Translations under genes and position numbers: made by a program
The notes under the pieces: generated by a model
The model's database searches: none
What the model was told of the DNA's origin: nothing
What the model saw: the letters and a program-made list of their open reading frames with translations, nothing else
From: Methanomassiliicoccaceae archaeon
GTDB lineage: Archaea > Thermoplasmatota > Thermoplasmata > Methanomassiliicoccales > Methanomethylophilaceae
DNA length: 33,875 bases
Reading direction: 5' to 3'
Assembly (NCBI GenBank): GCA_009784745.1
Contig: WQXR01000002.1
Coordinates: forward strand, 1-33,875
Shown: one piece after another, positions 18,073-33,255 of the stretch
How the letters are laid out: each line of letters begins with the position of its first letter
Numbering within the stretch: position 1 is the stretch's first letter

Positions 18073-18101
18073 TGTTATCGTTCGCATCCATCATATGGAC
18101 G

Positions 18102-18110
18102 TATTTAAAA
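18102..18110 (-). promoter_or_regulatory. TATA element of the aIF1A-to-polB operon
   Basis: TTTTAAATA on the minus strand lies about 26 bases before the predicted start near 18080, giving a nearly leaderless aIF1A message. No comparable promoter was noticed in the short gaps within the operon down to polB. Confidence 0.4.
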
Positions 18111-18218
18111 TATTCTCAGCGTTCACCGTATACGCGTATCATCGGTCCTTGTTACTAAAAGTAAGCATATGGTGTTCATTATCCTCGGAACGTAACAATC
18201 TTTTAATGTTTTCTGATC

Positions 18219-18270
18219 GTTCGTTCGCAAGAGGTTCGACGCTATCGAAAGTGCTTCCGGACGGACGAAC
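18219..18270. other. Imperfect hairpin, possible terminator or small RNA
   Basis: GTTCGTTCG pairs with CGGACGAAC (9 pairs, one G-U), with an inner TTCGA-CGCTA-TCGAA hairpin. AAATTTTAAGG follows on the plus strand. It sits in the 550-base gap between aIF1A and pgk, separate from the larger structured RNA. No homology is recognised. Confidence 0.3.
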
Positions 18271-18332
18271 AAATTTTAAGGAGCCAGATGTTAAATATTA
18301 AACACTGATTACGAGACAAAAGTGATAATCGC

Positions 18333-18343
18333 CGTTTAAAATA
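18333..18343 (+). promoter_or_regulatory. TATA element for the structured RNA
   Basis: GTTTAAAATAA on the plus strand would start transcription near 18362-18368. That is just upstream of the first strong hairpin of the structured RNA and about 95 bases before the mini-ORF. Confidence 0.35.
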
Positions 18344-18361
18344 AAATTCATATAATCAGAC

Positions 18362-18600
18362 GAATATGCCGCGATTACCGGGAAAAACGGGAAGCTCCGG
18401 ATACCGCCGCGAGTTTCCAGCAGTGGCGGTATCCGGAACCGTTACGGAGGAGGTGATATCTATGCGCCGAATTCTACGGATTCGGATCACCGTTATTATC
18501 GGTGACCTCAAGATCATTATCGATCTTGAAGTACCTTGAGACCGGTCGTCTAGCCCGCGTTACGGGCTCGGTCCTTCGGGCCGTTACTTCCTCCCAGTTT
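18362..18600 (+). ncRNA. Unrecognised structured RNA between aIF1A and pgk
   Basis: The region opens with a perfect 13-pair hairpin (TCCGGATACCGCC / GGCGGTATCCGGA, 18396-18437). A long-range helix GGAGGAGGT/ACTTCCTCC (18446-18454 with 18586-18594) then encloses five consecutive hairpins: CCGAAT/ATTCGG, TCACCG/CGGTGA, TCAAGATC/GATCTTGA, AGCCCG/CGGGCT and GGTCC/GGGCC. A TATA element precedes it on the plus strand. I compared it by eye with RNase P RNA (no GAGGAAAGTC) and SRP RNA (no GGAAG..AGCA helix 8) and found neither. The outer helix covers a perfect Shine-Dalgarno site for a 25-codon ORF, so it may be a regulated small message rather than a pure non-coding RNA. Confidence 0.5.
18462..18539 (+). 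CDS. Mini-ORF, 25 residues, inside the structured RNA
   Basis: ATG is preceded by a full-length Shine-Dalgarno site GGAGGTGAT, four bases upstream, the best ribosome binding site noticed in the window. The peptide starts MRRILRIRITVIIGDL and ends DLEVP: basic at the N-terminus, then alternating hydrophobic residues. The coding bases themselves form three hairpins, which may mean the reading frame is incidental to RNA structure. No family is recognised. It could be a leader peptide, a small membrane-active peptide, or not translated. Confidence 0.3.
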   Translation: MRRILRIRITVIIGDLKIIIDLEVP

Positions 18601-18639
18601 ATCATGCATATCGATGTATATAAATTCATTCGGTCCCGA

Positions 18640-19863
18640 TCAGAACTTCTTGAACGAATACCTTAACGCTTCCACCGCCGGTAATTCTTTTCCTAAAAGG
18701 AATGTCTCCAATGCGCCTCCGGCCGTGCTTACGTATGAAAAACCATCGGTCATGTCGAACATATCGGCAGCGCCTATCGTATGGCCGCCTCCGATGACGG
18801 ACTGACCTTTGCTCTCTGTCATCGCCATCATCAATTCTTTCGTGCCTTTTCCGAATCCTTCTTTTTCGTACAGTCCCGCAGGGCCGGACATGAATGACGT
18901 TCTCGATGATGTTAACACTTTACCGAACTTTTCAATGGAATCGTCACCTATGTCAAGCGCCGCCTCCGGTACCGGAAGATCACCGACCCTTACATTCACA
19001 CGTTTGCCGTTACGTTCAACGGCAACATCCGCAGGCAACAGGATCCTTTGACCGTACCTTGTCATCATATCCTTGGCAGCATTCACATTCTCAGGGGTCA
19101 TCTCTTCCTTGAGGAATTCCATGCTTCCGGGGCCGAGGTCAACGCCCCTTGCCGAAAGGAACGCATTTCCTGCAAGTCCCGTAAGTATCACAGTATCGGC
19201 GGTATTGCTTCCCAGAACATGATCTATCATCGGCGACACATCGCCGAACTTGGCACCGCCCAGAACGAACACGGAAGGTCTTCTCGGTTCTCCGAATATC
19301 GACCGGAGCGCGTATATCTCCTTCGCCATGAGCCTTCCGGATGCCGACCTCACCTTTACAGGAAAACCGACGAGCGAGCATTGTGACCTGTGAGCGGCGC
19401 CGAACGCGTCGCATATGTAATAATCAATGAACGGGACCAGCTCGTTGACCAATTCCGAATCAGCGTGACCGTTCATGTCCAATTTCAAAGTTTCGCATTC
19501 AAGCCCGCGGACATTCTCAAGCATAAGTACATCTCCCGCGGAAAGTGATCTTATTCTCTCCTTCGCGTCGTTCCCGATTATATCGTTAACGTACTGGACG
19601 CAATGATTAAGATGTTCCGAAAGTCTTTTCGAATGCTGTTCCATGGGAATGAAATCCCATTTTCCTTTCCTGCTCTGGTGCGCCAGTATGACTACTTTTG
19701 CTTTCTTTCCCATAAGTTCCCTGACCGTCGGAACTATCCTGCGTATCCTGGAATCATTTATGATCTGTAAAGTTCCCTTATCAAGCGGGCAGTTGATGTC
19801 CACCCTCAATAATACTGTCTTTTCCTTGAGGTCGAGATCTTCCAAGGTGTGAAAATCTTTCAT
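18640..19863 (-). CDS. pgk: Phosphoglycerate kinase
   Basis: A 407-residue enzyme that interconverts 1,3-bisphosphoglycerate and 3-phosphoglycerate with ADP/ATP. Archaeal PGK motifs are VLLRVDINCPLDKG near the N-terminus, LAHQSRKG, LENVRGLECE, VLGGAKFGDV and the C-terminal VIGGGHTIGAADMF with STAGGALETFLLG. The ATG at 19863 has GAGGATC just upstream. The track ATG at 19875 overlaps the gap stop and is the alternative. It is co-transcribed with gap, giving a two-gene lower glycolysis/gluconeogenesis unit. Confidence 0.95.
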   Translation of the reverse strand: MKDFHTLEDLDLKEKTVLLRVDINCPLDKGTLQIINDSRIRRIVPTVRELMGKKAKVVILAHQSRKGKWDFIPMEQHSKRLSEHLNHCVQYVNDIIGNDAKERIRSLSAGDVLMLENVRGLECETLKLDMNGHADSELVNELVPFIDYYICDAFGAAHRSQCSLVGFPVKVRSASGRLMAKEIYALRSIFGEPRRPSVFVLGGAKFGDVSPMIDHVLGSNTADTVILTGLAGNAFLSARGVDLGPGSMEFLKEEMTPENVNAAKDMMTRYGQRILLPADVAVERNGKRVNVRVGDLPVPEAALDIGDDSIEKFGKVLTSSRTSFMSGPAGLYEKEGFGKGTKELMMAMTESKGQSVIGGGHTIGAADMFDMTDGFSYVSTAGGALETFLLGKELPAVEALRYSFKKF

Positions 19864-33181: not shown

Positions 33182-33182
33182 G

Positions 33183-33255
33183 TGCTCACGCCGGGATTTG
33201 AACCCGGGTGTCCACCTCGAAAGGGTGGAATGATTGGCCGCTACACTACGTGAGC
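33183..33255 (-). tRNA. tRNA-Glu (UUC)
   Basis: The acceptor arms GCTCACG/CGTGAGC form 7 perfect pairs. The anticodon arm is CCACC-CTTTCGA-GGTGG with anticodon TTC, and the T-arm is CCGGG-TTCAAAT-CCCGG with the usual TTCAAAT loop. The discriminator is A and CCA is not encoded. No intron is present. It lies between the HAD-like gene and the MORN gene. Confidence 0.95.

Follow-up and report, generated by a model that had tools for sequence, protein, structure and literature searches.

What is the function of a structured RNA that appears to conceal a perfect ribosome-binding site and carries a 25-codon open reading frame between two housekeeping genes of a Methanomassiliicoccaceae archaeon? The question was raised by an original prediction which, from the letters of the window (the whole 33,875-nucleotide stretch of contig WQXR01000002.1 analysed here), placed such an RNA at 18362-18600. 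These coordinates were correct. The region 18362-18610 has a minimum free energy of -106.5 kcal/mol, compared with -79.5 ± 5.2 kcal/mol for dinucleotide shuffles (z = -5.2), and none of 200 shuffles was as low. Positions 18377-18594 constitute one copy of an unannotated RNA-peptide family in which a 5' hairpin, a Shine-Dalgarno site (SD) and an ORF are followed by a two-hairpin 3' domain with an anti-SD at its end. The 5' hairpin, the long-range helix enclosing five hairpins and overlapping the SD, the three hairpins within the mini-ORF and the upstream TATA element that had been described were all recovered (Table 1), and the mini-ORF itself is real, with homologues in relatives and purifying selection. 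The repeats of the element in the same genome, the inverted TATA box that borders it on the 3' side and the conservation of the ORF go beyond what had been proposed. In many copies the ACCGG strand of a short closing helix could pair with a CCGGT just upstream of the SD, as judged by eye in the alignments; this pairing is weaker in the window copy.

Table 1. Features of the window copy (window coordinates).
Feature	Position	Strand	Basis or remark
TATA-like element TCATATAA	18348-18355	+	sequence; ~22-30 nt upstream of the first helix of the RNA
5' strand of short closing helix (ACCGG)	18377-18382	+	by eye in alignments
5' hairpin P1, 12-14 pairs	18397-18408 with 18425-18436	+	predicted fold
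Long-range helix, GGAGGAGGT with anti-SD ACTTCCTCC	18446-18454 with 18586-18594	+	predicted fold; SD hidden
Perfect SD GGAGGTGAT	18449-18457	+	complementary to 16S rRNA 3' end
Micropeptide ORF, 25 codons, MRRILRIRITVIIGDLKIIIDLEVP, stop TGA	18462-18539	+	homologues in other copies
ORF hairpin 1	18467-18474/18478-18485 (whole 18467-18485)	+	predicted fold
ORF hairpin 2	18487-18492/18500-18505 (whole 18487-18505)	+	predicted fold
ORF hairpin 3	18509-18515/18522-18528 (whole 18508-18529)	+	predicted fold
3' domain hairpin P6, AGCCCG-CGTTA-CGGGCT	18552-18557/18563-18568	+	predicted fold, covariation
3' domain hairpin P7, CGGTCC-TTC-GGGCCG	18569-18574/18578-18583	+	predicted fold, covariation
Inverted TATA box TTTATATA (as read on minus strand), pointing inward	18617-18624	-	candidate antisense promoter

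When 41 related genomes were searched at the DNA level, further copies, diverged to ~70% identity, were detected in the genome of the window itself and in two relatives; over the family the similarity between copies is only ~60-70%. Once oriented, all copies share the 5' hairpin, GAACCG, AGGAGGTG, the ORF and the 3' domain. A peptide profile located 27 places in two genera and weaker ones in other genera. With a covariance model (R1) built from the 3' domain alone and used at E up to 0.01, 124 matches were obtained in 44 of 147 Methanomassiliicoccales genomes, distributed over seven genera of two families with at most 10 per genome. Among 400 genomes drawn from the whole class, R1 gave zero matches outside the same two families of the order, a confinement that doubles as a false-positive control. 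The hosts, by their named records, are Methanomassiliicoccales, including Candidatus Methanoplasma, and most are metagenome-assembled genomes. Genomes of the genus to which the window belongs carry 0 to 6 copies, and in another genus the number reaches 10.

The element was compared with known families. Among the 4227 Rfam families at curated score, the only match in the window was a tRNA located elsewhere, with nothing credible for the element at E ≤ 10, and its other copies were likewise without an Rfam match. The proposed check against Rfam thus gave no covariance-model match, in agreement with the claim that the RNA is not RNase P RNA, SRP RNA or tmRNA. The window also carries an ordinary minus-strand tRNA-Glu (TTC) at 33182-33255. 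Protein-family searches gave no convincing match for 27 members; the isolated weak ones (E 0.005-0.06) were NinD (0.006), IvbL (0.06) and phrog_8091 (0.005), each in a single member. A sequence search of the PDB with the peptide and a search of phage and plasmid collections with the element were negative. When three patterns were searched in viral contigs, two had no match and the third led to a phage contig sharing only the palindrome; a viral origin was rejected, no convincing relative being present in these contigs. The element thus belongs to a new RNA family that spans the order, covaries strongly and encodes a conserved micropeptide; it has no entry in Rfam and no convincing protein-family match.

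Pair-preserving changes in relatives, the other check that had been proposed, were found in the 3' domain. Among the first 30 copies, both sides have changed in 9 of the domain's 13 pairs, with 35 double-change cells against 9.9 ± 2.3 after shuffling, and every slid control collapses. In 75 distinct rows, most of them outside the model building and aligned by a fit to the model that leans towards it, double changes affect 12 of 13 pairs (156 cells against 46 ± 6 expected). They concern 6 of 6 pairs in P6 and, in the wide set, 6 of 7 in P7. G.U pairs are commoner than A.C in these helices (35 versus 12 and 29 versus 12), which points to the plus strand as the one that folds. P1 is kept in nearly all g1/g5 copies by means of many different complementary sequences, and of 90 leaders, 87 form a main stem at least 10 pairs long.

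An SD-like site is present in 94 of 111 copies and the family has a near-invariant anti-16S stretch, GGAGGTGA. In 90 copies the pairing of the SD with the 3' tail exceeds that with shuffled tails (z = -1.51 ± 0.18); it is only slightly better than with swapped tails (mean rank 0.42), as expected since the SD hardly varies. The ORF folds better than its synonymous recodings (mean z -1.96 ± 0.13, 33 copies), and the third ORF hairpin, which lies over the I-V-I-D codons, covaries above synonymous permutation (z = 3.5). A small hairpin linking the GUG of the SD with the start codon is enriched without being general (10 of 32 at p < 0.1).

In most of the 111 copies examined the ORF ends at, or adjoining, the start of the 3' domain, and many peptides finish with a Pro-stop directly before it. 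An iterated profile gave 72 candidate frames at E < 0.05, and most of the others either follow the alternating pattern too or carry a frameshift. Most copies, whose peptides span ~25-33 residues over the family, conform to [GR]-x-R-[IL]-T-I-x-x-G-D-x-x-I-V-I-D-x. All 24 core sequences keep an open plus frame, and its substitutions are more conservative than column shuffles (BLOSUM 2.10 versus 1.95). For close pairs, the pN/pS values of four classes that overlap in part are 0.40, 0.45, 0.48 and 0.25; judged from these substitutions, purifying selection acts on the ORF in each of the classes. The alternative of a purely non-coding RNA is not compatible with this protein-level selection. A conserved-looking minus-strand ORF (KIDNDLDVPKDN...) was rejected: its BLOSUM score is 0.73 versus 0.86 after column shuffling, it has no start, and its apparent conservation is due to the complementary frame being open as well. 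AlphaFold2 (five sequences) was run on the window peptide with a 30-residue input that began five codons before the ATG; residues 10-18 and 21-29 were modelled as strands, with a mean pLDDT of at least 90 there, which predicts a beta-hairpin.

The codon found at a fixed place after the SD, tallied in 78 copies with a simple rule that gets its place wrong in a few, is ATG in 27, ACG in 9, ATC in 9, TTG in 8, GTG in 7, ATA in 6, CTG in 3 and ATT in 2, with 7 left without assignment, several of them GTA. A canonical ATG, GTG or TTG is missing there in about half of the copies. In the mostly non-AUG class, pN/pS in close pairs is 0.45 and BLOSUM is 2.9 on the plus strand and 0.04 on the minus strand. 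Copies with ACG, ATC, ATA, ATT or GTA at the start place, such as L007, L019, L009, L021, L143 and L151, have an intact and selected ORF. These starts could be explained, for example, by weak initiation at a perfect SD, and they make near-cognate initiation in archaea directly testable.

Promoter-like signals flank the element on both sides. A minus-strand TATA score of at least 7/8 was obtained in 50 of 111 copies versus 14 in shuffles, and all 50 boxes lie at +75 to +99 from the stop codon and point inward. On the plus strand the same score was reached in 29 of 100 copies versus 13.6 in shuffles, most of them at -93 to -110 from the SD. The inverted box could instead be an AT-rich 3'-end signal, against which terminator-like T-runs are not prominent at the copies. 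In several g1/g5 copies (L011, L013, L015, L022, L029 and L033) a palindromic motif, TACATGTA, is found just upstream of the plus-strand TATA and, as a sequence, looks like a transcription-factor site.

The copies are inserted between unrelated housekeeping genes in every orientation, and their neighbours differ in identity and strand. The window copy lies between the genes of aIF1A and PGK, the latter on the opposite strand. In the congeners G001 and G005 this gap is ~60-75 nt and element-free; in G003 it holds a membrane protein and an XRE-like regulator, and in G006 two ATPase-like genes and more. The aIF1A-PGK junction (window 18087-18640; L086, L087) is an insertion hot spot in the genus, where G000 has the element. 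No terminal inverted repeats or target-site duplication were seen by eye when the window copy was compared with the empty sites. Tandem copies occur (G000:C16 and G065:C138), as do decayed ones: the ORF is frameshifted by one base in L099 (G001:C6), the sole copy found in G001, and in L174, and the SD is lost in L161. Other sites are kept across species, namely the Sir2/ABC-transporter junction in G058, G061 and G071 and an orthologous diphthine-synthase/acyl-CoA-synthetase junction in g4. As read from these loci, the copies are autonomous, sometimes tandem, and gained and lost. Together the data define a real, previously undescribed and order-wide RNA-peptide family.

The best reading in our analysis, to which we give a probability of about 0.45, is that of a self-silenced micropeptide mRNA with a candidate antisense promoter, which would work like a type I toxin-antitoxin locus; membership of that class is not claimed. 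The antisense RNA, the translational gating and the toxicity are what we infer. Each autonomous gene would produce a structured mRNA of ~220-250 nt encoding a beta-hairpin peptide of ~25-30 residues. The full-length mRNA would fold 5' to 3', hide its own SD and be translationally silent, and an antisense RNA from the inward minus-strand promoter at the 3' end would pair with the mRNA and hold it off. Once the 3' end or the antisense RNA is lost, the SD would become exposed and give rise to a burst of peptide, which may harm or growth-arrest its own cell, as for AapA/IsoA or hok/sok. The small toxic peptide locus and the riboregulator of the original prediction may both hold. The hidden SD, the opposite promoter-like box, the tiny ORF, the autonomous multi-copy loci and the decayed copies match type I logic. 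The covariation of the 3' domain, the G.U excess and purifying selection on the plus strand, the SD:tail pairing above shuffles, the minus-strand TATA at a fixed distance and the window site being empty in two congeners also argue for it. Against it count the predicted beta-hairpin, where a membrane helix is typical of type I toxins, the lack of an ATG, GTG or TTG start in about half of the copies, the small own-tail advantage in SD pairing and the restriction of reported type I systems to bacteria (PMC12390103).

Conservation at the protein level across at least two families and orthologous sites kept across species would also be in agreement with the gene of a useful, non-toxic small beta-hairpin protein, for example one binding the ribosome, RNA or a protein, with an mRNA structure that tunes expression and an opposite TATA that is incidental or drives the neighbour. 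We consider this rather unlikely, as copy number varies widely between related genomes, sites are gained and decayed, and neither a 3' end hiding the SD nor an opposite TATA at fixed distance would be predicted. It is less probable still that a functional RNA comes first, binding for instance the 16S rRNA 3' end or a protein, with an ORF weakly translated to remodel the RNA and a peptide of little importance. The very strong RNA covariation, the near-invariant anti-16S stretch, the frequent ATC, ACG, ATA or GTA starts and the selection of ORF hairpins beyond the peptide speak for it, but selection at the amino-acid level is found in all classes, the mostly non-AUG one included.

The multi-copy, sporadic occurrence and a site that is filled here but vacant in relatives could be explained by the spread of a small selfish repeat, MITE-like or transposon-related. 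This is improbable: terminal repeats and target duplication were not seen by eye in the window copy, copies are just ~60-70% alike, every copy has coding and RNA constraint, and the phage and plasmid collections had no match and the viral contigs no convincing relative. Hardly any weight is left for a leader-peptide attenuator, in which a ribosome stalled by the C-terminal VIDIP-stop would control the downstream gene. The Pro-stop directly before the 3' domain in many peptides recalls such leaders, but the downstream genes vary and occupy either strand, PGK being on the opposite strand in the window. A cis attenuator or riboswitch was rejected for want of a constant same-strand downstream gene, and the attenuator first suggested for this locus does not fit neighbours of differing identity and orientation. 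TnaC-type attenuators share the short ORF, often with a Pro-stop adjoining RNA hairpins, whereas the archaeal element is without a constant downstream gene.

The toxin-antitoxin-like reading was compared with described systems, the closest of which appears to be aapA3/IsoA3 of Helicobacter pylori, where a 3' anti-SD, a long-distance interaction and an antisense promoter on the other strand are known (PMC6733600). The likeness of aapA/IsoA to the archaeal element extends to a ~30-codon ORF, a small structured mRNA, an SD hidden by a 3'-terminal anti-SD, an opposite-strand promoter (a candidate in the archaeal element) and several copies per genome (PMC6733600). Unlike aapA/IsoA, the element is predicted to encode an amphipathic beta-hairpin in place of a membrane helix, has a unique covarying 3' domain and many non-AUG starts, and bears its opposite candidate promoter at its 3' end. 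No homologous membrane-helix toxin of the AapA/IsoA or Hok/Sok family was found, the protein-family searches giving no convincing match. In hok/sok, the 3' end folds back onto the 5' region, the toxin mRNA is highly structured and the chromosomal loci are autonomous and multi-copy, all of which the archaeal element resembles in its own fold-back, structured mRNA and loci. Unlike hok/sok, it has an archaeal host and neither a coupled mok-like ORF nor a sequence relation, and the Hok peptide is longer and contains a membrane helix.

Type I loci carry a small toxin ORF (below ~60 aa) in its own transcription unit; the ORF described here corresponds in size and autonomy (25-33 aa, selected, no constant neighbour), the toxin nature being putative. 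An SD-hiding mRNA structure is indicated by the predicted fold of the window copy and by the SD:tail pairing in the family. As the predicted peptide fold is unlike that of helical type I toxins (PMC8309996), it was assigned to no known toxin family. A 2025 article reports type I systems only from Proteobacteria, Firmicutes and Tenericutes (PMC12390103). It is possible, though on balance doubtful, that the element is the first archaeal type I-like toxin-antitoxin family, with RNA-silenced beta-hairpin micropeptides, at most 10 detected copies per genome in gut methanogens and near-cognate starts (ACG, AUC, AUA, GUA) from a perfect SD as a built-in brake. If the toxin-antitoxin reading is true, antisense-controlled toxin systems, described in the literature consulted as bacterial only, would reach archaea. 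Rumen, human-gut and termite-gut methanogens belong to the Methanomassiliicoccales, and termite-type records are among the element-bearing hosts. A self-encoded growth-arrest switch in gut methanogens would, given their place in this order, be useful as a tool and possibly as a target.

In the single-contig genome G011 (1,488,669 bases), the 5' regions of the copies L016 and L065 are nearly identical to each other, and a different hairpin, CATAAATGGGGGTGTAGGCCCCAATTTATG, stands there in place of the usual one.
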